Part shown: positions 1 through 19,060 of the stretch, in pieces
Layout: the number at the start of each line of letters is the position of its first letter
How positions within the stretch are numbered: the first letter of the stretch is position 1
Origin: Eubacterium sp.
GTDB lineage: Bacteria; Bacillota; Clostridia; Lachnospirales; Lachnospiraceae
Reading direction: 5' to 3'
DNA length: 19,060 nucleotides
NCBI GenBank assembly: GCA_020844525.1
Contig: JAJGAH010000005.1
Span: 1 to 19,060, forward strand
Translations under genes and position numbers: made by a program
Notes under the pieces: generated by a model
What the model saw: only the letters and a program-made list of their open reading frames with translations
What the model was told of the DNA's origin: nothing
The model's database searches: none

Positions 1-1
1 A

Positions 2-369: not shown

Positions 370-379
370 GGAGACATTC

Positions 380-1330: not shown

Positions 1331-1338
1331 GGTGCATG

Positions 1339-2640: not shown

Positions 2641-2643
2641 GAA

Positions 2644-4069: not shown

Positions 4070-4109
4070 CGGATATTCGACACACTATTCTATAGGATGA
4101 TTTTGCGTA

Positions 4110-5201: not shown

Positions 5202-5220
5202 CTTTTTATGAGGTTCGAAA

Positions 5221-6198
5221 ATGATTTATGTAATGGCTCCATACGCAACGGTGTCAGGAGGACCAGAACTACTCCAACAGCTGTGCTATGTATTAAATAA
5301 TAATAATATAAAATCAAAGATCTGTTATTATTCGTCATGGATGTTACGGGAACAGGGAGAAGATTCAAAGAAAAGATACGCTATCTATGATAACCCGTCT
5401 GAAATGAAGGTTGAAGACACACCAGACAATATTGTAGTCATCCCTGAAACAGCTACTTATTTATTAAGAAAATTTCACAAGGCAAAAAAAGTATTATGGT
5501 GGCTGAGTGTCGATTTCTTTTACAACAAAAAAAGATGGAAGGACAATGTCACCACTGTTTTTGGCTTGCTGGATGGAAATGTATTTGATAAGAGTTTATA
5601 TCATTTATGCCAATGTAAATATGCCCAGGATTTTTTGATTTCAAAAGGAATTAGTAAGGATCGAACTTTCTTCCTTTCAGATTATCTTAACGACGAATTT
5701 ATCCAGAATGCAAAACTGGAGAATCAAGTAGCAAAGGAAAATGTCGTTATATATAATCCTAAGAAGGGATATGAATATACAGAGCAATTAATCAATGCCG
5801 CTCCGGATATCAAGTGGATACCAATCCAGGGCATGACTCCTAATCAGGTCAGAGAGCTGATGCAGAAGAGCAAGCTATACATTGATTTCGGTAATCATCC
5901 AGGGAAGGACAGAATGCCACGGGAAGCAGCTATCTCAGGGTGCTGTATTGTCACCGGTAAGAGAGGTGCAGCGGCAAATGATGTGGATGTTCCAATACCT
6001 AGTAAGTATAAAATAGATGAGAAGAGTAGTGATTTTGTGCCGAAATCAATCGAATTGATTAGATACATCTTGGTCAATTACGAAGAGGTTAAGCCTGATT
6101 TTGATAGCTATCGTCAGATTATTAGAGGCGAAGAAAAACAGTTCGAGATGGACGCTGTGAATTCATTCAACTATTTCATTAATAAAGCAGACAATTGA
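5221..6198 (+). CDS. Glycosyltransferase (GT-B-like) of the polysaccharide cluster
   Basis: A 325-aa probable glycosyltransferase. The N-terminus (APYATVSGGPELLQQLCYVL) fits the glycine-rich acceptor loop of GT-B enzymes. The C-terminal half has YNPKKGYEYTEQLI, then IQGMTPNQVRELMQKSKLYI, then DFGNHPGKDRMPREAAISGC, which resembles the donor-binding EAA..GC region of GT4-like enzymes. No membrane segment is seen. GAGG at 5210-5213 sets the ATG. The gene sits between polymerase and flippase, so it should help build the repeat unit in the cytoplasm. Because the cluster encodes UDP-galactopyranose mutase, this could be the galactofuranosyltransferase, but nothing in the sequence proves that. Confidence 0.75.
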   Translation: MIYVMAPYATVSGGPELLQQLCYVLNNNNIKSKICYYSSWMLREQGEDSKKRYAIYDNPSEMKVEDTPDNIVVIPETATYLLRKFHKAKKVLWWLSVDFFYNKKRWKDNVTTVFGLLDGNVFDKSLYHLCQCKYAQDFLISKGISKDRTFFLSDYLNDEFIQNAKLENQVAKENVVIYNPKKGYEYTEQLINAAPDIKWIPIQGMTPNQVRELMQKSKLYIDFGNHPGKDRMPREAAISGCCIVTGKRGAAANDVDVPIPSKYKIDEKSSDFVPKSIELIRYILVNYEEVKPDFDSYRQIIRGEEKQFEMDAVNSFNYFINKADN

Positions 6199-6215
6199 AC
6201 TGCTGGAGGTTATTG

Positions 6216-7679
6216 ATGGAGAATAAAATACATTCAGTCAAATATAATTTCATCATGAATTTTATTTTGACTGCATCAAGTTTTTTATTTCCTCTTATTA
6301 CATTCCCATATGTTTCGAGAGTCCTTTTAGCCGAAGGAAACGGTAAAGTAGCATTTGCTATTTCTGTTGCCAATTATTTTATGATGGTTGCCTCACTTGG
6401 TATACCAACATACGGTGTAAGAGCCTGTGCAAAGGTCAGGGATAATAAAGAGGAGCTTTCAAAAACTGCCCAAGAGATTCTGCTGATCAATCTTGTCGCG
6501 ACTATTCTTGTGACGGCAACATACATTGTTTGCATTTTCGTTGTCCCCAAGTTTGCACAAGATAAACGGCTGTTTCTTATTTGTGGCGTAAACATTGTCC
6601 TCAATATGTTCGGCGCCAACTGGATTTACCAGGCACTTGAGCAGTACGATTACATCACAGCAAGATCCATCTTTTTTAAGGCGATTTCTGTAGTTTTGAT
6701 GTTTGCATTTGTTCGCCAGCAGTCTGATTATCGTGTGTATGCTGCGATAACGGTGCTTTCATCGGTTGGTTCAAATGTGATGAACTTCGTGCGTCTGAGA
6801 AAGATCATCACATTTCATAGGTTTGAGCATTATGAGATCAAGAAGCACCTGAAGCCTATCTTCATTCTGTTTGCCCAAAGCGTTACGGTATCGATTTACA
6901 CGAATCTCGACACTGTGATGCTCGGTTTTATGAAGACTGATAGAGATGTTGGACTATATAATGCCGCAGTAAAGATCAAGAACGTGTTGCTTTCAGTTGT
7001 GTCATCCCTTGGTAGCGTACTCCTTCCTCGTATGTCATACTATGTAAAGCAAGGCTCGAAGGATAAGTTTATCGGTCTGATGGCAAAGGCACTGAATGCA
7101 GTACTTTTCATGGGTATGCCCCTTGTAGCCTATTTTGTCTTTGAATCAAGGGATGCAATCCTGTTCTTAGCAGGGGAAGACTATCTTGGCGCAATTGCAG
7201 CGATGCAGATCATTACTTTTGCTATAATTCCGAATGGCCTGACTGGCGTTCTTGGTGTTCAGGTTTTGACCCCGCTTGATAAGGAAAGATATGTTTTGTA
7301 TTCAGTAATTGTTGGCGCAGTATCAGATTTCGTTCTAAATATTATCATGATCCCTTTGTGGGGAGCTGCTGGAGCTGCACTGGCAACCACGATCGCGGAG
7401 TTCCTTGTACTGATAGCTCAGCTGATATTTGCAAAGCAATATGTAGCAGAAGTGCGAAAAGTTATTCATGTCTTTAAATACCTAATTTTTGCGCTGATTG
7501 CATTAGTACCGACGGTATTGGTAAGTAGGGTGAATATCGGCAGTTCATTTGTACGGCTTGTAGTAACAGCACTTGTGTATTTCATCGTTTATGGTATCGC
7601 TCTGATAATCAATAAGGATGAAATGATGTACAGGGTACTGGACAACAAGGTGACAGGCAGATTCATAAGGAGACAATAA
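6216..7679 (+). CDS. Wzx-type polysaccharide flippase (MOP/RfbX family)
   Basis: A 487-aa polytopic membrane protein with 12-14 hydrophobic segments, starting with NFIMNFILTASSFLFPLITF and the typical PYVSRVL. This N-terminal pattern is that of O-antigen/capsule flippases of the polysaccharide transport family, which move undecaprenyl-linked repeat units across the membrane. YTNLDTVMLGFM in the middle is the conserved region of segment 7. I start at the ATG at 6216 because GGAGG at 6205-6209 is ideally placed; an upstream in-frame TTG at 6195 overlaps the preceding gene and lacks a site. The stop abuts the next start codon, showing translational coupling to the mutase. Confidence 0.9.
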   Translation: MENKIHSVKYNFIMNFILTASSFLFPLITFPYVSRVLLAEGNGKVAFAISVANYFMMVASLGIPTYGVRACAKVRDNKEELSKTAQEILLINLVATILVTATYIVCIFVVPKFAQDKRLFLICGVNIVLNMFGANWIYQALEQYDYITARSIFFKAISVVLMFAFVRQQSDYRVYAAITVLSSVGSNVMNFVRLRKIITFHRFEHYEIKKHLKPIFILFAQSVTVSIYTNLDTVMLGFMKTDRDVGLYNAAVKIKNVLLSVVSSLGSVLLPRMSYYVKQGSKDKFIGLMAKALNAVLFMGMPLVAYFVFESRDAILFLAGEDYLGAIAAMQIITFAIIPNGLTGVLGVQVLTPLDKERYVLYSVIVGAVSDFVLNIIMIPLWGAAGAALATTIAEFLVLIAQLIFAKQYVAEVRKVIHVFKYLIFALIALVPTVLVSRVNIGSSFVRLVVTALVYFIVYGIALIINKDEMMYRVLDNKVTGRFIRRQ

Positions 7680-8798
7680 ATGCATTACGATTATCTAATA
7701 GTAGGCGCAGGCCTTTACGGAGCGGTCTTTGCTCATGAAGCTCGCCTTCATAACAAATCAGTTCTTGTAATTGACAAACGGACTAATATCGCAGGAAACG
7801 TATACACTGAAAAGATTGAGGGCATCAACGTACACAAGTACGGTGCTCATATCTTCCATACAAACAATACGGAAGTCTGGAATTATATCCAGCAGTTTGC
7901 TACCTTCAACCGCTTTACAAATTCACCGGTAGCGAATTATCATGGTGAACTCTATTCTCTGCCTTTCAATATGTACACCTTCAATAAGATGTGGGGTGTA
8001 GTGACTCCGGAAGAAGCCGCTGCAAAAATCGAAGAGCAGAGGAGAGAAGCCGGCATCACTGAACCGAAGAATCTGGAAGAGCAGGCCATCTCTCTGGTTG
8101 GAACCGATATCTATGAGAAGCTGATCAAAGGCTATACGGAAAAGCAGTGGGGCAGACCATGTACAGAACTCCCTGCGTTTATTATCAAGCGTCTTCCGGT
8201 ACGCCTGACATTTGATAACAACTATTTCAATGCTTTGTATCAGGGCATCCCAGTTGGCGGATACACGAAGATGGTTGCGAACATGCTGGATGGCATCCAG
8301 GTCGAGTTAAATCAAGACTACTTTGCTGATCGTGAGAAATGGAATGGTCTTGCTGACAAGGTCGTCTACACCGGACCAATTGACGCATACTTCGACTACA
8401 AGCTCGGTACCCTGGAATACAGATCTGTCCGCTTCGAGACTGAAGTTCTGGACAAGCCGAACTTCCAAGGCAATGCTGCTGTAAACTATACTGACAGAGA
8501 GACTCCTTGGACGCGGATTATTGAACATAAGTGGTTCGAGTTTGGCAAGGATGAGAATGGCAATGATCTGCCGAAGACGGTCATCAGCCGTGAGTACAGC
8601 TCTGAATGGAAGCCAGGCGACGAGCCATATTATCCTGTGAATGATAAGAAGAATGGAGATCTTTATCAGGAGTACAAAAAGCTCGGTGATGCAGAGGAGA
8701 AGGTAATCTTCGGTGGTAGGCTTGGCGAGTACAAGTACTATGACATGGATCAGGTCATCGCTGCTGCACTGAAGAAGGCAAATGAAGAACTAAGGTAA
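7680..8798 (+). CDS. glf: UDP-galactopyranose mutase
   Basis: A 372-aa FAD-dependent enzyme converting UDP-galactopyranose into UDP-galactofuranose. The N-terminal dinucleotide-binding motif is YLIVGAGLYGAVFAHEA. KYGAHIFHTN and the following LYSLPFNMYTF region are hallmark Glf segments. GYTEKQWGRP holds the conserved lysine and tryptophan of the active-site region, and the C-terminal FGGRLGEYKYYDMDQVI is the FAD-binding end of the family. Length matches bacterial Glf. The ATG directly follows the flippase stop, with AAGGAGA upstream. Its presence implies that the polymer contains galactofuranose. Confidence 0.95.
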   Translation: MHYDYLIVGAGLYGAVFAHEARLHNKSVLVIDKRTNIAGNVYTEKIEGINVHKYGAHIFHTNNTEVWNYIQQFATFNRFTNSPVANYHGELYSLPFNMYTFNKMWGVVTPEEAAAKIEEQRREAGITEPKNLEEQAISLVGTDIYEKLIKGYTEKQWGRPCTELPAFIIKRLPVRLTFDNNYFNALYQGIPVGGYTKMVANMLDGIQVELNQDYFADREKWNGLADKVVYTGPIDAYFDYKLGTLEYRSVRFETEVLDKPNFQGNAAVNYTDRETPWTRIIEHKWFEFGKDENGNDLPKTVISREYSSEWKPGDEPYYPVNDKKNGDLYQEYKKLGDAEEKVIFGGRLGEYKYYDMDQVIAAALKKANEELR

Positions 8799-8802
8799 TA
8801 AT

Positions 8803-9276
8803 GTGCTCAGATACGCAGTCTTCTTGATATTTATTATCGTGGGCTTCCTGCTCAGCCAACACCGTAAGCTCTACCCAATAGTCGCTGTAGTTTACGGAAT
8901 TGCACTTTTTTATTACACCTTCTTGTCCCGGATGGAGCTGGCAACGACGACAGAAGCAGTGGTAGCGACATCAACTCCAGTTCAGCAACACTGGTGGGTA
9001 AACGCAGCCTATGAAATCTTCCGTATGAAGACGAGCAGCTACAGGGAAGCCTTTATCCTGAACATCATGCTGTTTGTGCCGATGGGATATTTGGTACATA
9101 CCAAGCATACGTGTCGGACGATCCTGATCTGCTCAGCTGTATCGATATGTATCGAGATTCTGCAGGAAGTAACTGGTTTCGGAATGTTCGACTGGAATGA
9201 CTGGATCGCAAATAGCATCGGGGCGGTGATCGGAGTTGTCATGGTCCGGATGTATAGATCCAGCAAGGCTGGATGA
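8803..9276 (+). CDS. VanZ-like membrane protein
   Basis: A 157-aa membrane protein with about five hydrophobic segments (YAVFLIFIIVGFLL, YPIVAVVYGIALFYYTFL, NIMLFVPMGYLV, ILICSAVSICIEIL, ANSIGAVIGVVMV). NIMLFVPMG followed by EILQEVTGFGMFDWNDWIANSIG matches the VanZ-like family pattern, in which an NxxxFxPxG element and an EilQ..tgrG.fD..D...N..G element recur. The best-known member contributes to low-level teicoplanin resistance, but most are of unknown function, and several lie at the ends of surface polysaccharide clusters. It starts with GTG at 8803 after AAGG at 8792-8795; an ATG at 8801 is in another frame. It appears to be the last gene of the polysaccharide operon, but no clear terminator follows. 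Confidence 0.8.
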   Translation: MLRYAVFLIFIIVGFLLSQHRKLYPIVAVVYGIALFYYTFLSRMELATTTEAVVATSTPVQQHWWVNAAYEIFRMKTSSYREAFILNIMLFVPMGYLVHTKHTCRTILICSAVSICIEILQEVTGFGMFDWNDWIANSIGAVIGVVMVRMYRSSKAG

Positions 9277-9292
9277 ACTGGCATACCCTCAT

Positions 9293-9334
9293 CCCCCTCG
9301 GCACTGCGGCAGGTTCCGCACCCGGGGGCGGGGG
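9293..9334 (+). other. GC-rich hairpin-prone spacer after the polysaccharide operon
   Basis: A C5 run at 9293-9297 faces a G5 run at 9330-9334, and between them GCGG (9306-9309) pairs with CCGC (9316-9319) around a six-base loop. No T tract follows, so this is not a standard terminator. It contrasts sharply in composition with the flanks and could mark a junction. Confidence 0.35.
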
Positions 9335-9337
9335 TCT

Positions 9338-9363
9338 ACAAGTGTGACTTGTAATGTGTGACT
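9338..9363 (+). repeat. Small inverted repeat with an overlapping direct repeat
   Basis: ACAAG (9338-9342) and CTTGT (9348-9352) form a 5-base inverted repeat around TGTGA. GTGTGACT occurs twice, at 9342-9349 and 9356-9363. The block lies between the polysaccharide operon and the next gene and might be an operator or a recombination edge; neither is proven. Confidence 0.4.
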
Positions 9364-9411
9364 AGAAACAAACAGATAGAAAGGATACAACATGAAAGGA
9401 AGAACATCGGC

Positions 9412-9861
9412 ATGAAAGAAAACGACGGACGCAGGAGAGAGAAGAAGAATCCCAGTGCTGAGTTCATAGACCAGATCTGCTCTCTGTATGATGATGTCTA
9501 TGATGATCGGGAAGAGGACAGTAGCATCGGTGGGGAGGACTGGGCTCCGGGTCAGAAGGCTCTGCATACCTCCCTTGTTGCTTTCCAGAAAGAACTGGAA
9601 GAAGGGTATGGCATAAAACTCTCCACATCAAAGATCCGGAAGATCCTGATCACCGGCGGATGCTGGACTACGGAACGGAGCAGGGAGGTCTGCGCATTAT
9701 ATGAGAAGTATGGATCGGTGGCTAAGGTCGCCAAGGTGCTCGGTCTGTCAGAAACGCTTGTGAAGACTTATCTTCCCTACGGTAAGGTGGTTTATGATCT
9801 CGAGGAAAAGTCCGGCAACGCAAAGCGGGTCGAGCGCTGGAGAGAGAAGCATAAGAACTAA
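9412..9861 (+). CDS. Helix-turn-helix-like protein of a mobile-element-associated family, unknown function
   Basis: A 149-aa protein in a compositional break between the polysaccharide locus and the phage-like region. It is rich in charged residues. After an acidic N-terminal part (SLYDDVYDDREED) comes WAPGQKALHTSLVAFQKEL, then a helix-rich segment KIRKILITGGCWTTERS. A probable helix-turn-helix follows (SVAKVAKVLGLSETLVKTYL, about residues 102-121), then YGKVVYDLEEKSGNAKRVERW. From memory, this layout recurs in Clostridia conjugative elements and prophages as an unnamed protein. DNA binding is likely, but the role is unknown. I start at the ATG at 9412 because AAAGGAAG precedes it at 9394-9401; an upstream in-frame GTG at 9358 lies inside the direct repeat and has no clear site. 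A strong terminator follows. Confidence 0.75.
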   Translation: MKENDGRRREKKNPSAEFIDQICSLYDDVYDDREEDSSIGGEDWAPGQKALHTSLVAFQKELEEGYGIKLSTSKIRKILITGGCWTTERSREVCALYEKYGSVAKVAKVLGLSETLVKTYLPYGKVVYDLEEKSGNAKRVERWREKHKN

Positions 9862-9878
9862 CACACATAGAAATCAAC

Positions 9879-9931
9879 ACCCCGGAGTGGTTTTCAGGAC
9901 TTTCCTGATTACTGCTCCGGGGTATTTTTTT
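9879..9931 (+). terminator. Rho-independent terminator
   Basis: ACCCCGGAG (9879-9887) pairs with CTCCGGGGT (9915-9923), and a seven-T run follows at 9925-9931. The loop carries a second hairpin, TCAGGA (9894-9899) with TCCTGA (9903-9908). It ends the helix-turn-helix gene transcript. The reverse strand lacks a T run past the stem, so it should not stop the operon coming from the other side. Confidence 0.9.
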
Positions 9932-9939
9932 ACCCTCAC

Positions 9940-9957
9940 GGTTAGATTTAACTAACC
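9940..9957 (-). repeat. Short inverted repeat just past the AAA ATPase gene
   Basis: GGTTAG (9940-9945) and CTAACC (9952-9957) form a six-base stem with a six-base AT loop, immediately downstream of the - strand stop codon. No T run follows on the - strand, so it is at best a weak 3'-end element for the three-gene operon. Confidence 0.45.
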
Positions 9958-9961
9958 CAGA

Positions 9962-12244
9962 TTATACCGCCCGACTCTTCATCATTTCGTAATGCTCATC
10001 CTGACCGAGAGAGTAGAAGATGTCCTTGAATACTTCCCGGTATACGTCCGGCTTTACAGCAGAGGCATCGTAGTACAGGCTGTCATTAAATCCGGCAGAA
10101 TTTGTATCAAGACAGCTGACCATGGCAACTGCCAGATCATATCTGCCTGTGTTATCTGAGCCATCATCGTTTTTCTCGACAAAGGACTCTTTGTGTTCGT
10201 CGATCAGCTTCCTGAGACTGCGTTTTCCGCTGACCTGCAGGAAGTAGTATTCGAGGATGCGTCTCGCTGCGTTCATGGCGATCATGGAATCGTCAGTCGT
10301 CAGGAACTCTTTCCACAGAGCATCATACTCATTCTTGACTGGTGTCGTGTTCACTTCTGTAGGTGGGGTGGTCGGGATTGTTTCTACGCAAGGATAAATG
10401 TCAGATTGATTCCCGGCACCTTTCTTCAACTGGAAGAAGGATACACATTCATACTTGTCCTGCCAGCTGTATGTGATCTCACGGAAGAAATACGGATTGT
10501 GCGTCAGGCAGAAGAACTGTTTGATGTAGTCATCACGATTTCCGTCCTCGGAAAGATCATAATTGTTGTAGCAGATGCTGATCAGGTTCCGGACCAGAGA
10601 GGCAACGAGGTAGAGGGTGCCACTGTCCATGGAAGATACCGGGTCATCGATCACGACGATCTTGTGATGCTTGATCCCATCATCGGACTGGCTCTTCACG
10701 ACGGTCTGATAGTAATAGAGGAATGCGATGAAGTTCCTCTCACCTTCACTCAGATCCTTTGCAATCGTCTTATTCCCGGACCCGTCATCTCTTACAAGCT
10801 GATACACATACTGTGTACCTGGCTTCTCGACCATTTCAAATCCCTGAAAACCTGCGCTCTTCAGAAGAGCATTGATTGCATCTTTGGCAACTGTGGTGTT
10901 GACCGTCTGCTGATTCAGCTCTTTGATCTTTTCCGTGTATTCCTGATCCTGCTGCGCCAGCTCTTTCTGTCTTGTTTCAATTCCAGTCTGTACCTTCTTC
11001 AGTTCTTCCATGCCCGCACTGTAACCGGCGAAGATAGTCTGGCACTGAAAAGCCATTTTCTCCCAGACAGCCTGATTGCATGCCTGCTTCTTTTTCGGGT
11101 TTGAAAGCATGTCGTTATATTTCCGGATCTCGGCATTGATCTTCTCGATGGTGTCATTGACTTGCTGCAGCGCATCCAGAAGATCTTGATTGTCGATTGT
11201 TGTGGGCGTTGCCGGAGCAGCGATCTTTGCCTTGATGGCATCGAGATTACGGTGTGCTTTCTCCATGAACAGATCAACACGGCTCTTGTATTCATCGGCA
11301 AGCGGACCGGTGAAGCCGGTATTGTGCTGAAGGGTCAAGGCTGCATTGTTCAGCTGTCCTCTGTAGTTCTCGCACATTCTGCTGAGAGCAGCAACTGCCT
11401 GCTCGTACCGCTTGTCGAATACAGCGGCCAGATCTTCTTCAAAATGATGACGGTCCAAGGGCTGTCCGCAGTAGGGGCAGACGTCACCAGCCGCTTCCTG
11501 ATACTTATCATGGCCATCACGGACCCAGTCGCTGTTTCCCAGTCTTTTCAGGAGGGAAGCATAAGGAGTGTCACTGACACTGACAATGCTGCTGCCGAGG
11601 AGGTTATCGATGTCGTCCCCAAACTGCAGATGGGCAGGCTTATATTCCGGCATGGCTGTACCAGATTCCTGATAAGCTGTCTTGTAGAGCTGATCAAGTT
11701 CAGCAATATCATGGTCAACAGCCTGCGTCTTCTGAAGCTGCAGGAAGAACTTCTTCGTGTCATTCTTGTAACCAGCCTGGGTATCCGGATACTTGGCTTT
11801 TCTGAGTTCTGTTGTTTCTTTCCAGACGTCCGCGATAGCTTTCTTTTCACGGTCGGTCTGTTCACCCTTATTCTTTTCCAGGTCCTGCGCCGCATGTTCC
11901 ATCTTCGGCTGCAGTTTCTTCTGGGCGGCAGTGGTGTCGTCGATCTCTTTCTTCTTTTCTGCATTCGTCTTGGTCAGCGTGAAGACACCCGGAATGTTGC
12001 CATAGCTCTGCACATTTTCCCGGATGTAATCCTCGTTGTACACCATGATGACCGCATCGTCCTTGGGCTGCTTGAACTCAAGACCGGGGTAGTCCTTCTG
12101 GTCCATCAGTCTGCTGATCGTGGATTTTCCGGTACCATTCGTGCCGTAGATAAAATTCACCAGCGTCGGGTTAAAGCTCTTGTTTGTGAATATCGGACTG
12201 TTCAGCGTGACTTTTGTAATTTCAGTCTGAATTTTCTTCTGCAT
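9962..12244 (-). CDS. AAA_13-type ATPase, RloC/PrrC-like putative anticodon nuclease
   Basis: A 760-aa ABC/SMC-type ATPase. Walker A is YGTNGTGKST (residues 33-42), the ABC signature is LSEGERNFIAF (about 497-507), and Walker B with D-loop is IVVIDDPVSSMD (about 528-539). Long charged helical stretches (about 90-180 and 330-450) look like coiled coil. A single CPYCGQPL near residue 254 resembles the zinc-hook CxxC of RloC. The C-terminal region has MNAARRILEYYF with R661-x3-E665, the same spacing as the Arg-x3-Glu of the PrrC catalytic triad, and ends in EHYEMM. RloC/PrrC enzymes cut tRNA anticodons during phage infection; this role is inferred for the present protein. AGGAGG overlaps the upstream gene's stop, eight bases away. 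The third catalytic residue, a histidine, is not certain: H684 and H751 are candidates. No restriction-modification genes accompany it here. Confidence 0.8.
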   Translation of the reverse strand: MQKKIQTEITKVTLNSPIFTNKSFNPTLVNFIYGTNGTGKSTISRLMDQKDYPGLEFKQPKDDAVIMVYNEDYIRENVQSYGNIPGVFTLTKTNAEKKKEIDDTTAAQKKLQPKMEHAAQDLEKNKGEQTDREKKAIADVWKETTELRKAKYPDTQAGYKNDTKKFFLQLQKTQAVDHDIAELDQLYKTAYQESGTAMPEYKPAHLQFGDDIDNLLGSSIVSVSDTPYASLLKRLGNSDWVRDGHDKYQEAAGDVCPYCGQPLDRHHFEEDLAAVFDKRYEQAVAALSRMCENYRGQLNNAALTLQHNTGFTGPLADEYKSRVDLFMEKAHRNLDAIKAKIAAPATPTTIDNQDLLDALQQVNDTIEKINAEIRKYNDMLSNPKKKQACNQAVWEKMAFQCQTIFAGYSAGMEELKKVQTGIETRQKELAQQDQEYTEKIKELNQQTVNTTVAKDAINALLKSAGFQGFEMVEKPGTQYVYQLVRDDGSGNKTIAKDLSEGERNFIAFLYYYQTVVKSQSDDGIKHHKIVVIDDPVSSMDSGTLYLVASLVRNLISICYNNYDLSEDGNRDDYIKQFFCLTHNPYFFREITYSWQDKYECVSFFQLKKGAGNQSDIYPCVETIPTTPPTEVNTTPVKNEYDALWKEFLTTDDSMIAMNAARRILEYYFLQVSGKRSLRKLIDEHKESFVEKNDDGSDNTGRYDLAVAMVSCLDTNSAGFNDSLYYDASAVKPDVYREVFKDIFYSLGQDEHYEMMKSRAV

Positions 12245-12252
12245 AATACCTC

Positions 12253-12897
12253 CTAACGAATCTCATAATTCCGATCCTTCAGTACGCTGAGAAGGTCGAT
12301 TTTCTTTATTGCCCAGTGCTCATCATCCAGTTCATTCCGCAGAGATGAAGTTGCCAATCCGAATAATTCCGCATTCTGATTCAGCAGGTTCTGAGGAATA
12401 GCCGGAGCGTAATATCCGAACTTGAACTTGATGACCGAGCCATGGACGGTGATCTTGCTGAGTTTTCCTGCCACACATACCCAGTTCTCACTGCATCTTG
12501 AAAAGTCATCGTTCCGGATGGTGAACAGGCAGGGCATGCTTAAAATCTCTGCGATGATGTCTGCCGTCATCGGGCGGAAGTGATCTGCGTTATGTGTGTA
12601 CCGGGTCAGGGCATCAGAACGGGAAATGGAGAAAGAACCGTCCCTATATGTCTCGTCTTCAATTACAAACAGGTTGTAGTAATCCCTGCGCAGCTGGCCG
12701 ATCTCTATCGGATCGTTTGATGGCACAGGTACGGGAGAGGAGAAGAGACCGGCGTTTTGCAATAAGGGTAACAGGGTCTGAAGATCTGTTCCACCAATAT
12801 TGACATTGAGGCTCTGTATACTTCCCGCTGCGATCCCACTTCCACTGGCGCTGATCGAAATATCTCTGACATTCCGGGTATCAATTTCATCCGGCAT
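12253..12897 (-). CDS. Unknown 214-aa protein with N-terminal amyloid-like motif
   Basis: I do not recognise a named family. After a short polar start (MPDEIDTRN), residues 11-35 carry a glycine-rich beta-prone motif with core GSGIAAGSIQSLNVNIG. The upstream gene has nearly the same motif at its C-terminus. A helix-like TDLQTLLPLLQNAGLF and a short Pro/Ser linker lead to a globular domain from about residue 60 (QLRRDYYNLFVIEDETYRDG, then ALTRYTHNADHFRPMT). The end is rich in beta strand (ENWVCVAGKLSKI, VIKFKFGYYAP). No membrane segment or nuclease motif is evident. The ATG at 12897 overlaps the upstream stop by one base (TAATG), with GGGGGA about ten bases upstream. A longer frame from 12942 would overlap the upstream gene and is less likely. 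It is probably an adaptor or effector linked to the AAA ATPase; this is inference. Confidence 0.8.
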   Translation of the reverse strand: MPDEIDTRNVRDISISASGSGIAAGSIQSLNVNIGGTDLQTLLPLLQNAGLFSSPVPVPSNDPIEIGQLRRDYYNLFVIEDETYRDGSFSISRSDALTRYTHNADHFRPMTADIIAEILSMPCLFTIRNDDFSRCSENWVCVAGKLSKITVHGSVIKFKFGYYAPAIPQNLLNQNAELFGLATSSLRNELDDEHWAIKKIDLLSVLKDRNYEIR

Positions 12898-13769
12898 TAT
12901 TTCTTGTCCCCCATATTGACGGTAAGCTCCCCGATATTCCATGCGGCAATACCAGAACCATTGTTAACGATGGATATATTCTGAGTGGTCCCCGACTTCT
13001 CTTCCTTCTTGCGCGGATCTTCATCCACGATTTCAGCTTCAACATACTCTGCGTCTGCATGCTCTTCACTTTCGGCTGCAGTATCGCTGTTCCGGCTTCC
13101 GGTCTTGTCATAGTTGTACACGTCGGTCACGACAGTCCACGGATTCAGAACACCGGGACGTACATCCCATGGACGCTGTGTCTCGTGTTCAAAATAGTGC
13201 TCGAACATGTCCGGCCAGATAGAATCGTCACGTTCCTTCCTATTAATAATAAGGAAGTGCCAGACTCCAAGAAGCAGAGCTTCAAGACATACAGATGACT
13301 GCTTCAGGAGATCATCCCTGCTGATCGGTGTTCCATCTTCCCTGCAATAAAATTGTGCGCCTTCCAGAGAGCTGTCATCGTGGATAATCCGCAATAACGC
13401 CTGTGCCAGCCATATACGGGCTTCATCTGAATCCTTCAGACAGCTGACAACGTTGTCATGTATACGTTTCAGTTCGTTTCCGTACTGTTTCCTGACCCGC
13501 CGGTCAAAGGATGCGATCAGATAATCATCATCAATCTTGAAGAAGACAGTGCTCTTCGGAAGATCACCTTTCAGATAGTCTGAGCAGAAGTCAGATGCTG
13601 GGAATGGCGCATCCGCATCGATGAAAGAGCTCAGCCCCCAGAAGATATCTTTTCCACTAACTCTGTCTTTTATTCCTTTCTTATGTTCACGTGGACTTGC
13701 GCCATTGGATTTGACATGAAGAAGCAGCCCGTAAAAGAAACTGCCACACAAATACGGTGCATTCTCCAT
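12897..13769 (-). CDS. Unknown 290-aa protein with C-terminal amyloid-like motif
   Basis: First gene of the - strand operon; I do not recognise a characterised family. Residues 1 to about 215 look globular and mostly helical (SFFYGLLLHVKSNG, WGLSSFIDADAPFPASDF, FKIDDDYLIASFDRRVRKQY, ARIWLAQALLRII, LEALLLGVWHFLIINRKERD, then a Trp/Pro-rich stretch). Residues about 220-262 are an acidic, low-complexity linker with many Glu, Asp and Ala. Residues 263-287 form a glycine-rich beta-prone motif with core GSGIAAWNIGELTVNMG, three residues before the end. Domain, disordered linker and terminal motif is the layout of proteins that signal by templated amyloid contact, and the next gene begins with the same motif. 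AAGGGG seven bases upstream fixes the start. No enzymatic residues can be assigned; it could be a sensor or a cell-killing effector. Confidence 0.8.
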   Translation of the reverse strand: MENAPYLCGSFFYGLLLHVKSNGASPREHKKGIKDRVSGKDIFWGLSSFIDADAPFPASDFCSDYLKGDLPKSTVFFKIDDDYLIASFDRRVRKQYGNELKRIHDNVVSCLKDSDEARIWLAQALLRIIHDDSSLEGAQFYCREDGTPISRDDLLKQSSVCLEALLLGVWHFLIINRKERDDSIWPDMFEHYFEHETQRPWDVRPGVLNPWTVVTDVYNYDKTGSRNSDTAAESEEHADAEYVEAEIVDEDPRKKEEKSGTTQNISIVNNGSGIAAWNIGELTVNMGDKK

Positions 13770-13794
13770 AGAATTTCCCCTTTCATTAAAACTT

Positions 13795-13827
13795 CCAACT
13801 GAACCAACTCAACCAACTGAACCAACG
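13795..13827 (-). repeat. Tandem 9-base repeat in the leader of the three-gene operon
   Basis: About 3.7 copies of a 9-base unit, CCAACTGAA/CCAACTCAA on the + strand, end 25 bases before the start codon of the 290-aa gene. They fall in its 5' untranslated leader. A - strand frame across them would read Ser-Trp-Phe repeats, but it starts upstream of the likely promoter and is probably not a gene. Confidence 0.8.
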
Positions 13828-13933
13828 ATTGAGGTCTTCGAAACCAACCATAGGGTCGTAAGTGAAGGTAAAGGAAACGGAGCCTTGAGGACTATCAGAT
13901 ATGACCATGGATTTCGTGCTTTGATTGATTTCC

Positions 13934-13942
13934 ATTATACCA
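13934..13942 (-). promoter_or_regulatory. Extended -10 element, likely promoter of the three-gene operon
   Basis: On the - strand this reads TGGTATAAT, a perfect TGnTATAAT extended -10 box. The matching -35 position (13957-13962, GATGTG) is weak, as is allowed for extended -10 promoters. Transcription would start near 13927 and give a leader of about 155 bases before the 290-aa gene. The remaining part of the spacer 13770-13990 holds the tandem repeat and, near 13978-13985, the + strand ribosome binding site of the phage-like genes. I could not identify a convincing + strand promoter. Confidence 0.6.
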
Positions 13943-13990
13943 TATCGGGTCCTCCCCACATCGGGAAATACCACCTGAAAGGAGGACACC

Positions 13991-14089
13991 ATGAAGATCG
14001 TTCATATCGGGGTGCATCACATCAGAGATCCCGGCACATCAGCTGCTTCCGGCAATATCCACAGGCAGAAACATACACCAGAAAAATGA
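13991..14089 (+). CDS. 32-aa micro-ORF at the head of the phage-like early genes
   Basis: A short frame from ATG at 13991 to TGA at 14087-14089 preceded by a near-perfect ribosome binding site, AAAGGAGG at 13978-13985. The peptide is basic and histidine-rich (begins MKIVHIGVHHIRDPG) and matches nothing I recognise. It lies 14 bases before the DUF3846 gene. It could be a real small phage protein, a leader peptide, or a remnant with a surviving translation signal. The strong site is the main argument for translation. Confidence 0.5.
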   Translation: MKIVHIGVHHIRDPGTSAASGNIHRQKHTPEK

Positions 14090-14103
14090 AAGGACAGAAT
14101 CTT

Positions 14104-14475
14104 ATGAAGAACAAGACTTATAAGGTCATCATCGCAATGCCGTTCGAGAAGGCAGAAGTGTATCAGATTCCAGCATCCACGGACGTTCTGGCAAAGCTCG
14201 TCGGCGGGATCATGGAGTTCACCAATCCGATCACGGACGATGTCACCGTCATCACCAATGACAACAGCATCGCTCTCGGAATGGAACCGAACCGGGTCAT
14301 CAGGGACGAGGACGGATATCCCGTCGATGTCTACTGCGGACCTATGGTCATCATCGGAGAAACGGAAGACGGGGAGCTTCGGTCCCTGACAGAATCTGAG
14401 ATCATCCTGAATCTCATGGCTTACGGTGAGCCTGACTTCAAGAAGGATGACGATGAAGGAGAAGCAGAATCTTAA
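14104..14475 (+). CDS. DUF3846-family phage protein
   Basis: A 123-aa protein matching the DUF3846 pattern seen in phage and plasmid early regions: an N-terminal strand (YKVIIAMPFEKAEVYQI), then KLVGGIMEFTNP, then a turn with VITNDNSIALGMEPNRVI, and finally CGPMVIIGETEDGEL. The function of this family is unknown. I start at the ATG at 14104 because AAAGGA precedes it by about nine bases; a longer frame from 13885 reads through the promoter region and the micro-ORF in another frame and is unlikely. The acidic C-terminus (DDDEGEAES) overlaps the next gene by 23 bases. Confidence 0.75.
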   Translation: MKNKTYKVIIAMPFEKAEVYQIPASTDVLAKLVGGIMEFTNPITDDVTVITNDNSIALGMEPNRVIRDEDGYPVDVYCGPMVIIGETEDGELRSLTESEIILNLMAYGEPDFKKDDDEGEAES

Positions 14476-15082
14476 CTACAACGTGATCGCGTCCGGGTCA
14501 TCCGGCAACGCGGTCAGGATCGGCAGCATCATGGTCGACTGCGGCGTGGGATTCACGGAGATGAAGGAAGACCTGTATCAGGTTGACACCCTTCTTATCA
14601 CCCACGCACACAGCGACCACGTGAAGCCGATAACACTGGAGAGCATCAGGAGAGAGTTCCCGCGAATCCGAGTATTCGGAAACAGCGATGTTGCTTACCG
14701 GTATGACGTAGACAAGGTGGTCGGGACCATGCCGTTCGACCTGCCGAAGGGGAGACACATCATTCCCTTTGACGGCAGCCACGACATCCCCGTCACCGGC
14801 TACATCATCCAGCAGGACGGGCTGAACATCCTGTACATGACGGACAGCAACACGGTGGAAATGCCGGTGGATATCCCGCTCGACTACATCTTCCTTGAGA
14901 GCAACTACGACGAGAGGAAGCTGGCTGAGATCGGGAAGCGGTACGCGAAAGGGTCCTATGATCCGATCGCAAACGCACACAGACACCTGTCAACGCAGAA
15001 GTGCAGGGAATTCTACTACGTGCACCGGCGCGACAGGGACTCACAGCTGATCGAACTCCACAAGAGCAGCAGGTTTTATTGA
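14453..15082 (+). CDS. Metallo-beta-lactamase fold hydrolase, YycJ-like phage protein
   Basis: A 209-aa metallo-beta-lactamase fold protein. The start (NVIASGSSGNAVRI, then IMVDCG) is the form seen in YycJ/WalJ-type members. Metal ligands are visible as THAHSDH (H51, H53, D55, H56), then H110, D131 in YMTDSN, and a final H178 in RHLS. The set of ligands is complete, so the enzyme should be active. YycJ-like proteins have been linked to DNA exonuclease activity, and phage copies lie in replication modules as here; the substrate in this case is unknown. AGAAGGA just before the ATG at 14453 supports this start; ATG at 14447 is inside that site. It overlaps the DUF3846 gene by 23 bases, indicating coupled translation. 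Confidence 0.85.
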   Translation: MKEKQNLNYNVIASGSSGNAVRIGSIMVDCGVGFTEMKEDLYQVDTLLITHAHSDHVKPITLESIRREFPRIRVFGNSDVAYRYDVDKVVGTMPFDLPKGRHIIPFDGSHDIPVTGYIIQQDGLNILYMTDSNTVEMPVDIPLDYIFLESNYDERKLAEIGKRYAKGSYDPIANAHRHLSTQKCREFYYVHRRDRDSQLIELHKSSRFY

Positions 15083-15092
15083 GGGGCAGGCA

Positions 15093-15132
15093 GTCGGATC
15101 AATATCGCCGGTACGGCGAAAGGGCATCCGAC
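15093..15132 (+). other. Two-stem hairpin in the spacer before the DUF1351 gene
   Basis: GTCGGAT (15093-15099) pairs perfectly with ATCCGAC (15126-15132), enclosing a second stem CGCCG (15106-15110) with CGGCG (15114-15118) around a three-base loop. No T run follows. The ribosome binding site of the next gene comes about 20 bases later, so it may be an mRNA processing or translation-control element. Confidence 0.6.
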
Positions 15133-15164
15133 AGCAATCCCCACACAGATGAAAGGAAATCGAT

Positions 15165-15929
15165 ATGGAAGACGTAATGATTCGGGACGAACAGACTCCC
15201 GACGTACAGTACCAGGTCGCCAAGGTTACCTTCGATTCCTTCCCGGAGTACAAGGACAAGTGCCTTCTGATTGCTGAGCATATCAGGAATACAGAAGTCA
15301 CGGAAGATAATCTCCCGGAAGTGAAGAAGGAGCTGGCAGCGGCAAGGAAGATCACAGATGCGCTGAACAGCCGGAAGGTCCAGATCAAGAAGATCATCCT
15401 GACGGACTACACAGCATTCGAGAGCCAGGTCAAGGAGCTGAAGGGCATCATTGACGAGGCCGACGGAGAGCTTCGCGGCAAGGCCAATGCTCTGGAGGAA
15501 CAGGCCCGGGACCAGAAGAAGGAAGAGATCCGGCAGGTGTTCCTGAAGCGCATCGGCCAGTACACCATCGGAACCTTGATCCCGGACGCATTCGACCGCT
15601 GGTGGCATGAAGATCTGGCGAACAAGAGCAAGTCCATGAAGGCCGTGGAAGCAGACATGGTCGACTGGCTGGAAGGAACCGAGAAGGACATCGCCACCCT
15701 GAAGGGCATGGACAAGGAGATCCTCGTTGAGTACCTGGACTCCATGGATCTTGCAGCAGCGATCCAGACGGTCAATGCCAGAAACGCCAGACGGCATGCA
15801 GTGGAAGCTGCACCGGACGACACAGTACCTGAGGAGCAGGTCGCGGTGTTCCGTGTGTACGGACAGAAGGATATCGCACTCGCGGAGATGCTCCTGAAAG
15901 ATAACAACATCAATTTCAGAAAGGAATAA
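15165..15929 (+). CDS. DUF1351-family phage protein
   Basis: A 254-aa protein matching the DUF1351 family common in Firmicute phages close to recombination or replication genes. The central part (about residues 40-125) is strongly charged and helical, with the family's LPEVKKELAAARKITDALNS and RKVQIKKIILTDYTAFE segments followed by a probable coiled coil. The C-terminal part (FRVYGQKDIALAEMLLKDNNI) looks like a separate small alpha-beta unit. No catalytic motif is seen. In other phages such proteins neighbour single-strand annealing or polymerase genes; the exact job is unknown. AAAGGA lies nine bases before the ATG. Confidence 0.75.
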   Translation: MEDVMIRDEQTPDVQYQVAKVTFDSFPEYKDKCLLIAEHIRNTEVTEDNLPEVKKELAAARKITDALNSRKVQIKKIILTDYTAFESQVKELKGIIDEADGELRGKANALEEQARDQKKEEIRQVFLKRIGQYTIGTLIPDAFDRWWHEDLANKSKSMKAVEADMVDWLEGTEKDIATLKGMDKEILVEYLDSMDLAAAIQTVNARNARRHAVEAAPDDTVPEEQVAVFRVYGQKDIALAEMLLKDNNINFRKE

Positions 15930-15934
15930 GGATT

Positions 15935-16561
15935 ATGGAAAAGAGAGAGAATCTTGAGCTTGTGAATGTGGCGTTTGAGAACAACGGGCAGAAGGCTGTT
16001 CTCACATTCCTGGATAAGGAACGCGCCGAGGTAAGAACCGTGAATTTCAATCGTCAGGTGTACCGCGACAACAAGTACGTCGCTGACGATACCAAGGCGG
16101 AGAAGGTCGACACATGGTGCCGTGACATCTTCGGATGCGAATTCACCGAGCTGCCGTCCTGCGTCGGCAAGAAGTACACGGTTTACGAATACGACGACTT
16201 CAACAGCCTGTTCGAGGTGCAGATCATCACGAAGTTCACCAAGGACCAGGTCGGCCAGATTTACCAGACTGCCATCGACGAAGTCGTGCTCGATGATTAC
16301 TTCATCAAGATCCATTACACCATCGATGGCAAGACCTACGAATCCAAGCAGACCTTCGGAACGTATCTGCAGGATATGAAGCAGTGGTTCGTGGACCCGC
16401 TGAAGAAGGAAAAGGAATTCGCGAAGTTCGAGAACAAGTATCACGTCAAGGTCGAGGATCGTGACCAGCTCGTCGGCCATCCGATCATGGTCGAGGTCAA
16501 ACCGGCATTCGGAGACCATTACTGGGGCGACATCAAGAAGTTCCCGGCTCGTAAGAAGTAA
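15935..16561 (+). CDS. Phage protein of unknown function between DUF1351 and DNA polymerase
   Basis: A 208-aa protein I cannot name. It begins with alternating strands (LELVNVAFENNGQKAVLTFL, then VRTVNFNRQVY) and is rich in charged and aromatic residues, with no membrane segment or enzyme motif. Two parts look well ordered: EYDDFNSLFEVQIITKFTKD and KIHYTIDGKTYESKQTFGTY. The basic tail ends in PARKK. The beta-rich start, aromatic content and position just before a DNA polymerase would suit a single-strand DNA-binding accessory protein, but this is a guess from context. It starts five bases after the DUF1351 stop with AAGGA as its site. Confidence 0.7.
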   Translation: MEKRENLELVNVAFENNGQKAVLTFLDKERAEVRTVNFNRQVYRDNKYVADDTKAEKVDTWCRDIFGCEFTELPSCVGKKYTVYEYDDFNSLFEVQIITKFTKDQVGQIYQTAIDEVVLDDYFIKIHYTIDGKTYESKQTFGTYLQDMKQWFVDPLKKEKEFAKFENKYHVKVEDRDQLVGHPIMVEVKPAFGDHYWGDIKKFPARKK

Positions 16562-16576
16562 GGGAGGCCGGGCACG

Positions 16577-18370
16577 ATGAAGACAAAGCTTTTCTACGAT
16601 ATGGAAGTATTCAAAAGTGACACCCTCATCGTGTTCAAGAATCCCGATGGCAGTATCGCGGGAGTCTTCTGGAACAACCGCGATCGTAAGACACAGGAAG
16701 AGCCCTCAGGTTTTGAGGGCATTCCTGATCTTATCAAGGACAAGATCCTAATCGGCTACAACAATTTTCACTACGACGACTGCATCCTCTCCCTCACGAT
16801 GAATCAGGCGACGTCGATGCAGTACGTTATCAAGGCCAACAACGACAAGATTATCGCCGGTGATGGCTTTGCCGGGAAGGTCAGTCCTGACATCGATTCT
16901 CTGGACACAATGCAGCAGATCGACGTGTCACATCCTAGCCTGAAACAGATCGAAGCGAACATGGGACGCTCCATCGTGGAGTCCAAGATTGACTTCAACA
17001 TTGACCGTCCGCTGACAGATGAAGAGCGCAAAGAGACCGAGTTCTACTGCGGCAATGACGTCAGCGCTGCCATTGAGGTCTATAAGCTCCGTGAATACGG
17101 ATACTTCGAGACCAAGAAGCAGCTGATCGAAATGCTGCCGGAAGAACAGAGGGAGAAGGCGAAGAAATGGAACACCACAACCATTGCCGCAACGATCCTG
17201 ACAGGCGGGAAAGCAACCGTCTGGTGGGGGCCGGAGATGGTGCGGAAGCTCCTCGGAAAGTACTGGCGGAATGTGCCCGGTATCCCGGATGAGGTCTGGG
17301 ATATGTGGGAAGAACTCACGGCATCTCCTGAAGCCACGATGGGAAAAGGCAAGTCAAAGAAGATCAAGGCATTCGGATGCGACGTTGTTCTGGGTCTTGG
17401 CGGACTGCACGGAGCACCGTCGAAACCGCTCAGGGTCGGAAAGTGCAGACATAAGGATGTGAAATCCATGTATCCGTCAGCCATCTGCCACCTGAGAGCT
17501 CTCGGGGATGCGACTCCTGTATATGACCAGATTCGGCAGGAACGTATCCGCATCAAGCATTCGGACCCGCTGAAGGCAGCAGCACTGAAGCTGATCTTGA
17601 ACAGCGTGTATGGTCTGTTCAAGAACCAGTATTCCACTCTTTGCAATCCGCTGGCATCATCGATCGTCTGTATCTACGGCATGATCAGCCTGTTCTCCCT
17701 CTGCCGGGAACTGGATGCAGCAGGGTACCGGATCATCAACATCAACACGGATGGCGTCGTTTACGAGGACAGACCTGAACTCAACGGCAGGGATGATGAG
17801 ATCTGCAGCGAATGGGAGAAGACCTTCGACGGATTCCAGCTGGAGACAGATGAGTTCGATCAGTGGATTCAGAAAGATGTGAACAACTACATCGCTGTCG
17901 ACGGCGACAACATCACGGTCAAGGGCGGCGAGGTCAACAAGTATCTGGAGAATAAGTACTTCTCCAACAACAATGCCCGGATCATCCAGATTGCTCTGGT
18001 CGACAAGCTCGTGTATGGCACCCCGGTCCTGACAACGCTCATGGATCACATCGACGACCACATCCTCTGGCAGTACGTGCTGAAGGCAGGGTCTACGTTT
18101 CAGGGAGTATGTGACAGCAACGGGGATCTGCAGAACAAGGTCAACAGAGTCTTTGCGGCAACAGAATCCTGCGATTACACCCGGCTGTACAAACTCCGGG
18201 CAGACGGCGGCAAGGTGAATTTCCCGGATGCGCCGGACAGGATGTTTCTCTGGAACGAGGACGTGAATGACATTCCGGATGACCAGTTCCGAAAGATCAT
18301 CGACATCGAGCATTACTACACGATGGTCAATGAGAAACTCAAGGGCTGGCCGCAGGACGTGTATGGATAA
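16577..18370 (+). CDS. Compact family B DNA polymerase with 3'-5' exonuclease
   Basis: A 597-aa phage replicative polymerase. The exonuclease motifs are YDMEV (Exo I, D8 and E10), YNNFHYDD (Exo II, with D67) and FYCGNDVSA (Exo III, Y157 and D161). The polymerase motifs are DVKSMYPS (motif A, D294), KLILNSVYG (motif B, K338, N342, Y345) and INTDGVV (motif C, D392). All catalytic residues appear present, so it should be active in replication and proofreading. Motif C reads NTDG instead of the usual DTDS form. Only 44 residues separate D294 from K338, so there is no room for the insertions that mark protein-primed members. A primase gene follows, so RNA- or DNA-primed synthesis is likely. GGGAGG at 16562-16567 precedes the ATG. 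Confidence 0.85.
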   Translation: MKTKLFYDMEVFKSDTLIVFKNPDGSIAGVFWNNRDRKTQEEPSGFEGIPDLIKDKILIGYNNFHYDDCILSLTMNQATSMQYVIKANNDKIIAGDGFAGKVSPDIDSLDTMQQIDVSHPSLKQIEANMGRSIVESKIDFNIDRPLTDEERKETEFYCGNDVSAAIEVYKLREYGYFETKKQLIEMLPEEQREKAKKWNTTTIAATILTGGKATVWWGPEMVRKLLGKYWRNVPGIPDEVWDMWEELTASPEATMGKGKSKKIKAFGCDVVLGLGGLHGAPSKPLRVGKCRHKDVKSMYPSAICHLRALGDATPVYDQIRQERIRIKHSDPLKAAALKLILNSVYGLFKNQYSTLCNPLASSIVCIYGMISLFSLCRELDAAGYRIININTDGVVYEDRPELNGRDDEICSEWEKTFDGFQLETDEFDQWIQKDVNNYIAVDGDNITVKGGEVNKYLENKYFSNNNARIIQIALVDKLVYGTPVLTTLMDHIDDHILWQYVLKAGSTFQGVCDSNGDLQNKVNRVFAATESCDYTRLYKLRADGGKVNFPDAPDRMFLWNEDVNDIPDDQFRKIIDIEHYYTMVNEKLKGWPQDVYG

Positions 18371-18377
18371 GGCACAA

Positions 18378-18436
18378 GGGTATGACAGCACCATATCTGC
18401 CACGATCGGTGGCTGGTGTGGTGCAAGACCATACCC
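18378..18436 (+). other. Nested three-stem hairpin after the polymerase gene
   Basis: GGGTATG (18378-18384) pairs with CATACCC (18430-18436). Inside it GCACCA (18388-18393) pairs with TGGTGC (18419-18424), and inside that GCCAC (18399-18403) pairs with GTGGC (18409-18413) around a five-base loop. Nesting of three perfect stems separated by small internal loops is unlikely by chance. No T run follows, so it is not a simple terminator. It is followed by the block TGAAACAGGAGGAAA. Confidence 0.7.
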
Positions 18437-18440
18437 GATT

Positions 18441-18530
18441 TGAAACAGGAGGAAAGGCATACAGCAGCATAGGTGCATCCACGGAACGTGGACCTGCTGC
18501 CGTGTCTGACCTCCATGAAACAGGAGGAAA
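18441..18530 (+). repeat. Duplicated 15-base ribosome-binding-site block
   Basis: TGAAACAGGAGGAAA occurs at 18441-18455 and again at 18516-18530. The second copy serves the primase ATG at 18533. The first copy has no ATG at the right distance; the nearest possible start is a GTG far downstream, so it looks like an orphan copy left by a duplication or by loss of a small gene. Confidence 0.85.
18464..18500 (+). other. Second hairpin upstream of the primase gene
   Basis: TCCACG (18478-18483) pairs with CGTGGA (18487-18492) around GAA. The stem extends, with small bulges on the left arm, through GG (18472-18473) with CC (18493-18494) and GCAGCA (18464-18469) with TGCTGC (18495-18500). It lies between the two copies of the 15-base ribosome-binding-site block. 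Confidence 0.65.
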
Positions 18531-18532
18531 CC

Positions 18533-19060
18533 ATGTTTATCGAATATAAGGACGGTGAGAAACACACCGGCAAGATCGACAGGGCCGAACTCTCCGAGAA
18601 CATTACAACCTTCAACAGCTGCGGCGAACTGATCGCAGACAACGAGGTGGTGATCGACATCGACCATCTCCCGAAGGAATCCATCAAGGCTATGATACAG
18701 GAATTCGGTATCAAAACCCAGGTGGTCTGGACGGAGAGAGGTGCACATCTCTGGTTTAAGAAGCCGGTATGGTTTACCCGGCGTCATGACGGAGTATGCA
18801 AACTGGGCTTCGAGATCGAGCAGCACACGATGCAGTCTAACCCCGGTGGGATGACGGTCCGCAGAAATGGCGTGACAAGGGATATCGACAATATCGGACT
18901 CCGCGCCTATATGCCGGACATCTTCCAGGTCGGGACCAAGAAGAAGCCCTATCAGAATCTGACCGGTATGGACGACGGCGACGGCAGGAACAAGGCGCTG
19001 TTTGCGCAGCGGAAGGCCCTGAACAACTGTCAGGACTGGGAGAAGATGCTGGGCTTCATC
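18533..19060 (+). CDS. Phage DNA primase (archaeo-eukaryotic primase type), 3'-truncated by window
   Basis: The first 176 residues of an open frame that continues beyond the window. VVIDIDHLP (D42, D44) fits the hhhDhD metal-binding motif of archaeo-eukaryotic-type primases and prim-pols. WTERGAHLWFKKP (H72) fits the following s-x-H motif. Near the end of the visible part, DGDGRNKALF matches the segment after the catalytic core in phage primase/helicase proteins. It should make primers, or act as a primase-polymerase, for the polymerase encoded just upstream; a helicase domain may follow outside the window. AGGAGG at 18523-18528 is ideally placed for the ATG. Family assignment rests on these motifs only. 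Confidence 0.75.
   Translation, partial: MFIEYKDGEKHTGKIDRAELSENITTFNSCGELIADNEVVIDIDHLPKESIKAMIQEFGIKTQVVWTERGAHLWFKKPVWFTRRHDGVCKLGFEIEQHTMQSNPGGMTVRRNGVTRDIDNIGLRAYMPDIFQVGTKKKPYQNLTGMDDGDGRNKALFAQRKALNNCQDWEKMLGFI

Follow-up and report, generated by a model that had tools for sequence, protein, structure and literature searches.

Reports of bacterial amyloid signaling sequences (BASS) come mainly from filamentous actinobacteria and cyanobacteria, and BASS effectors carry the motif at the C terminus, according to the part of PMC7889193 on which we draw. For RHIM and PP motifs, the section of PMC7885112 used here gives the core G-(I,V)-Q-(I,V)-G. The portion of PMC12169576 drawn on here describes bNACHT clade 14 as lacking readily discernible effector domains and describes effectors carried N-terminal to NACHT in STAND proteins. 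Here, we describe three adjacent genes, which we call A, B, and C, in a 19,060-nucleotide stretch from Eubacterium sp. (GenBank assembly GCA_020844525.1, contig JAJGAH010000005.1, positions 1 to 19,060); we refer to this whole stretch as the window. Our sequence comparisons indicate that the C terminus of A and the N terminus of B carry a locus-specific homotypic motif under joint selection. We think it probable that A-B-C is a prophage module that acts like bacterial amyloid signaling without an NLR and that its motifs would form fibrils.

Gene A (13769-12897, minus strand) encodes a 290-aa protein with a helical globular domain, an acidic linker, and a C-terminal motif. Gene B (12897-12253, minus strand) encodes 214 aa, and a TAATG overlap joins the stop of A and the start of B. 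We placed the start of B at the ATG at 12897. The 229-aa open reading frame (ORF) listed for B begins too early, since the B homologues that reach the N terminus start at MPDEIDT, the distant P0032 excepted. An initial annotation had reported that the A tail and the B head share a 25-residue motif with 14 identities, that the DNA of the two copies has diverged, and that the rest of the two proteins looks unrelated. We reproduced these counts: local alignment gave 25 columns with 14 identical residues, covering A residues 264 to 288 (12906..12980, minus strand) and B residues 12 to 36 (12790..12864, minus strand), and the codon was the same at 3 of the 14 identical residues. The motif cores are GSGIAAWNIGELTVNMG in A (residues 271 to 287; 12959-12909, minus strand) and GSGIAAGSIQSLNVNIG in B (residues 19 to 35; 12843-12793, minus strand). 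The two copies contain the strings GSGIAAWNIG and GSGIAAGSIQ, respectively, and a central Gln is absent. None of 200 shuffles of the B head reached the score of the true pair. With 32 residues of the A tail as the query, the sole match besides the tail itself at an E value of 1 or less in the window's own genome (2.53 Mb, 384 contigs, 69% complete) was the B head (E = 0.024).

The globular domain of A (approximately residues 1 to 222; 13104..13769, minus strand) is mostly alpha-helical in an AlphaFold2 model that is mostly confident to about residue 222, and comparison of this domain with PDB structures gave no clear match. The linker (approximately residues 223 to 262; 12984..13103, minus strand) is predicted to be disordered, and the predicted local distance difference test score was below 50 across most of residues 225 to 290. 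The acidic linker ahead of the A motif was also annotated correctly (D plus E, 27% in the linker stretch versus 13.5% in the globular parts), and acidic residues are enriched in the linker across the A family.

To start, we had 13 homologous rows for A and 19 for B. In every homologue of A or B that includes the relevant end, the motif is retained, as a variant in the distant rows. More distant loci were gathered by patterns and searches based on the globular parts or on full-length proteins; the motif by itself was never the query. At counting, 161 sources (some of them repeat fetches of one contig; some later loci lie outside the count) contained 124 adjacent A-B pairs, 75 of which were distinct. 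They also contained 34 A ORFs with no B, fragments included, and 2 ORFs that join the two domains. After we dropped L031, in which B has no N terminus, and pairs whose two globular parts both exceeded 80% identity, 53 nonredundant pairs remained, and these were used for the pair comparisons below. The loci come mainly from Clostridia-type Bacillota; exceptions include two Prevotella contigs from metagenome-assembled genomes and one from Desulfobulbaceae.

We found that the motif varies widely from locus to locus though it is matched inside each. Examples of A tails and B heads are GNGTIIGTLNAG with GNGTLIGSLNAQ (L002/L008), GSGDIYSDIGTLNI with GSGDIYSNIGTINQ (L051), EQKAEKIYYIDHVDN with QQKAEKLYNIKHVEN (L092), and QSGDGRQFGYIGEY with QSGGEGKQFGYVQNY (L129). 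The mean A-tail/B-head score was 58.7, versus 32.4 for permuted partners (standard deviation, 1.5; maximum, 38.4 in 20,000). In 44 of the 53 pairs, head shuffles (200 each) never reached the true score, and the true partner ranked first in 22 pairs and first or second in 32. Three pairs had z scores between 2 and 3 (L029, L030, and L052), and four had z scores below 2 (L007, L014, L036, and L131). At the phage locus L014, the protein in the A position (4240-4824; 194 aa) has a motif-like tail with a weak match (z = 1.6), and its N-terminal part (140 aa) matched none of the other 52 A domains in a phmmer search. Tail-tail distances followed head-head distances when both globular distances were regressed out (partial Mantel r = 0.62; reached in 0 of 9,999 permutations, with a maximum of 0.15).

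The match was largely specific to the expected ends. A z score of at least 5 was obtained in 41 of 53 A-tail/B-head comparisons and in 4 of 53 with a swapped partner. None of the 53 A-tail/B-tail, 53 A-head/B-head, or 37 B-tail/C-head comparisons reached this value, so that A and B otherwise showed no likeness at the ends compared, and 1 of 37 A-tail/C-head comparisons did. Among other adjacent gene pairs, 6 of 688 reached it, and four of these six consist of an A protein with the NLR-type motif (see below) and the next protein: L072, L125, L126 (a near copy of L072), and L133 (where the partner is a short ORF).

Two stretches less than 200 bases apart might be kept alike by gene conversion or by a signal at the DNA or RNA level. 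The codons contradict this explanation, which we regard as exceedingly improbable: over the 53 pairs, the same codon was used at 282 of 606 identical residues, versus 261.3 expected from the codon usage of the same genes, and use in the window was likewise at the level of random choice. We therefore concluded that there was no recent gene conversion and that the resemblance is old and has been maintained at the protein level. The shared segment might instead be the relic of an old duplication or of a split fusion, drifting without function. The genes are adjacent, they overlap in 52 of the 75 pairs, and two A-B fusions exist, all of which would suit such an origin. A drifting relic is nevertheless very improbable, as synonymous sites are randomized though the residues match, the two ends co-vary beyond phylogeny, and the fusions described below are without the motif instead of carrying it.

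The window's genome also holds a second, diverged A-B-C cassette (L008:2368-6245, contig C3) with its own distinct motif pair. The window A tail scored 61 on its own B head and 27 on the B head of the paralogue, and the paralogue A tail scored 78 on its own B head and 41 on that of the window. These scores suggest that the two systems of one genome are partially orthogonal, with ends that match better within than between systems. A 331-aa ORF (L008:552-1547, plus strand) adjoins the second cassette; we take it to be caspase-like because of its SGHG motif.

Compared with the globular parts, the motifs were enriched in N (3.0-fold), Q (2.2-fold), and G (1.5-fold), a composition that, as far as sequence can tell, resembles that of amyloid signaling motifs. 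The core G-V-Q-I-G is present in two A homologues (P0011 and P0012) and IQIG in L029 and L030, and the loose pattern xQ[IVLC][GA] occurs at both ends in 11 of the 53 pairs. Ses_B (PF17046), an amyloid-linked fungal family of the death pathway, matched P0011 (18.3 bits at 273 to 286) and P0012 (17.7 bits at 271 to 286) exactly on the motif, below the Pfam curated score of 23.2, and the other 57 of 59 A rows had no Ses_B match at an E value of 0.01.

From these data, homotypic assembly of the A and B motifs seems very likely, and the assembly is probably cross-beta. Alternatively, the motifs could be a nonamyloid homotypic docking pair. As with the docking segments at the ends of assembly-line enzymes, A and B would then form an ordinary heterodimer, for example through strands that complete one small beta-sheet or a beta-solenoid. 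The matching and co-variation data would suit any homotypic contact, polymer or not. Docking pairs, however, usually have complementary ends, and those of A and B are near-identical. The enrichment in N, Q, and G, the G-V-Q-I-G core of two relatives, and a motif that recurs in three proteins at each of two NLR loci (see below) suit templated stacking better. We therefore consider a docking pair unlikely, if still worth weighing, and favor amyloid-type assembly.

We found that A and its partner are not always separate proteins. A and B are encoded as one chain in two viral contigs (L005:4753-6495 and L006:4759-6459). These two fusions have an extra intervening domain that by eye resembles the pre-NACHT stretch of the L072 NLR. 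In another 14 ORFs, A is fused to a larger partner that comes after it, and we examined 12 of them, leaving out two near copies. The junction stretch after A was taken as residues 206 to 300, or 206 to 425 in the A-B fusions. A recognizable motif was absent from the junctions of the 12 A-fused proteins and the 2 A-B fusions in this test, which is blind to a motif of a wholly different kind: the best score on any motif tail was 36, and each of the 53 real tails scored at least 43 on another tail. None of the 14 junctions beat its own shuffles (at least 8 of 100 shuffles reached the score in each). By this comparison, loci in which A and its partner are separate proteins have the motif, and in fused ones it is not recognizable. 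The initial annotation had named loss of the motif from both partners, with the globular domains conserved, as evidence that would count against it. Such loss was clear only in the fusions, which supports amyloid-type signaling; among the 53 unfused pairs, the four with z scores below 2 are those noted above.

The fused partners pointed to NLRs. NACHT was found in six of the eight A-fused proteins that were scanned, with SNaCT14 also in four; L148 encodes an A-NACHT fusion with SNaCT14 in a separate next ORF, and the scan gave no domain match in the A-fused proteins of L145 and L146. In addition, five loci (L070, L072, L123, L125, and L133; L126 and L124 are near copies among the loci of this type) encode a separate A protein with a wholly different C-terminal motif, VNNYGTVQNQKFISIETMNGDI or close to it. 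In all five, the N terminus of the protein encoded next matches this tail, with a score that at most 1 of 500 shuffles reached. The three partners scanned, those of L070, L072, and L125, carry NACHT and SNaCT14. The motif was also found in a third protein in both loci compared (L070 and L072), and this protein has DUF6650 in L072, where it was scanned. Overall, SNaCT14 accompanied NACHT in seven of nine scanned NACHT proteins tied to A; none was found in L065. The link to NLRs is thus real in relatives, where the A domain is fused to NACHT NLRs or motif-paired with one, and we therefore regard A as NLR-linked. As had been annotated, the three window proteins A, B, and C have no NLR domain. The loci with separate A and NLR genes show the BASS arrangement with A on the effector side, which places A in NLR immunity, and B of the window occupies the place of the NLR in those relatives.

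The globular alpha/beta domain of B (residues 63 to 214; 12256..12711, minus strand) weakly resembles, as a model, the PUA/EVE/YTH readers of modified bases. A Paraburkholderia plasmid encodes a B-like domain and a CAP12/PCTIR TIR domain in one protein (L015:4917-6068); no A-like ORF was noted alongside, and by eye the N terminus has no motif.

Gene C (12244-9962, minus strand; 760 aa) encodes an AAA_13 ABC ATPase with a CPYC zinc hook and R-X3-E and is the PADLOC candidate PDC-S06. The RloC triad is given as Arg-X3-Glu-X36-52-His, often with Ser before the His, in the part of PMC2610378 drawn on here. In the window, R661-X3-E665 is followed by His at X18 and X85 only, with none at X36-52. The earlier description of C as RloC/PrrC-like therefore holds for the ATPase and the zinc hook and fails for the triad, which is incomplete in the window. 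We collected 58 distinct full-length relatives, the window's included, and could locate the R-X3-E region in 57 of them. The CP[YF]C hook is present in every one of these 57, Glu at R-X3-E in 38, both Arg and Glu in 37, and Ser-His at the RloC spacing in 1. Other counts weigh against setting C apart from RloC: some His lies at X36-52 in 38 of 57, and Arg, Glu, and such a His occur together in 18 of 57. Part of the family could therefore keep an RloC-type triad. Near the C terminus (approximately residues 748 to 755 of gene C), Q-H-[YF] is found in 54 of 57 relatives, where the window reads DEHYEMM; this near-invariant element is a possible stand-in for the catalytic His of RloC.

A C-type ATPase follows B in 62 of the 75 pairs and is absent in 9, and four contigs are too short. 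Five of the nine loci lacking C have a 1076- to 1077-aa protein whose start resembles that of the helicase protein next to A-NLR locus L125, and the fused A-B of L005 precedes a DruA-like protein. Some phage loci, though not the window, have a small protein between B and C (L011:5599-5811, HTH_17; L013:5499-5693), annotated as excisionase or VrlI-like. Given these varied companions (C-type ATPase, helicase-like, DruA-like, and the TIR fusion), the A-B module lies beside several kinds of defense gene.

These companions bear on which protein does what. B triggering A is, in our view, evenly poised. In the same assembly the roles might be reversed, with A sensing and B, perhaps with C, executing; the fusion of a B-like domain to a TIR effector domain in L015 and the variety of defense-type genes downstream of A-B are consistent with this. 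In contrast, the fusions place A N-terminal to NACHT, the effector position of STAND proteins (as set out in the part of PMC12169576 cited above). A also carries its motif at the C terminus, like BASS effectors (in the cited part of PMC7889193). Reversed roles seem doubtful to us, though they are a real possibility, and we continue with A as the putative effector.

Phage genes with PHROGs matches (14426..18370, plus strand: a metal-dependent hydrolase, two genes of unknown function, and a DNA polymerase) point away from A and mark a prophage. Positions 1-9276 hold sugar-nucleotide and surface polysaccharide genes, including a flippase (6195-7679) and a UDP-galactopyranose mutase-like gene (7680-8798), both named by eye, and end with a VanZ-like gene. 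Because of the prophage location, the PDC-S06 assignment, and the kinship with NLRs, we think it likely that A-B-C defends against phage.

We propose that the motifs of A and B would co-assemble in register in a cross-beta form of the amyloid signaling type. B, in the place that the NLR has in some relatives, would nucleate or recruit A, which would hold the effector position, its motif being C-terminal when A is separate and A being N-terminal to NACHT when fused. The PUA/EVE/YTH-like domain of B could read a nucleic-acid feature of infection, a sensing role that we put forward tentatively. C, as a Rad50/RloC-like ATPase, may supply energy-dependent sensing or a nuclease-type response, and a private motif for each locus would keep parallel modules of one cell apart. 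More broadly, we find it conceivable, without leaning toward it, that unicellular Clostridia and the temperate phages that infect them have a large class of amyloid-type signaling modules. In these, B, a protein akin to modified-base readers, would replace the NLR, private cross-beta codes would couple sensor to effector without cross talk, and A would be the missing effector of some clade 14 bacterial NLRs. If A-B-C works as we propose, amyloid-type immune signaling would reach beyond the NLR pairs of multicellular bacteria to a prophage-carried module that lacks an NLR. The loci offer dozens of natural motif pairs for asking how a short homotypic code gains specificity, and they make A a candidate effector for the NACHT/SNaCT14 proteins, which have been described as having no discernible effector.

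Several known systems resemble parts of A-B-C. For RloC and the PrrC anticodon nucleases, gene C shares the AAA_13 ABC ATPase, the CXXC zinc hook, and R-X3-E and differs in having no His at the RloC spacing in the window. PUA-superfamily modification readers (EVE, YTH, and the McrB N-terminal domain), which are built on a five-stranded core, may share a weak fold likeness with the modeled B domain. RHIM and fungal PP motifs share their core with P0011 and P0012, whereas this core is absent from the window motif, and no A row reaches the curated score for Ses_B. With bNACHT clade 14, to which we assign Pfam SNaCT14 by its name, the NLR partners and fusions of A share NACHT and SNaCT14. Unlike that clade as described, these relatives have a visible A domain, either N-terminal in the same protein or in a separate protein linked by the motif, and A, B, and C of the window are without NACHT and SNaCT14. 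BASS are the closest match. Both have a short N/Q/G-rich homotypic motif at the C terminus of one product and the N terminus of the next, in many unlike versions, and the A domain itself pairs in this way with NACHT NLRs in relatives. The systems differ in that the partner in the window is B, with no NACHT in A, B, or C, and a zinc-hook ATPase follows. BASS effectors carry Bell, CHAT, or TIR domains; by Pfam, the window's A has no match and was not recognized as Bell, and across 59 A rows the Ses_B hit below threshold was the sole match at an E value of 0.01. The loci are mainly from Clostridia-type Bacillota rather than from filamentous actinobacteria or cyanobacteria. The NLR partner typical of BASS is missing from the window and present in the relatives L070, L072, and L125. 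A-B-C of the window thus stands outside BASS in its partner and would work like BASS in its motifs.
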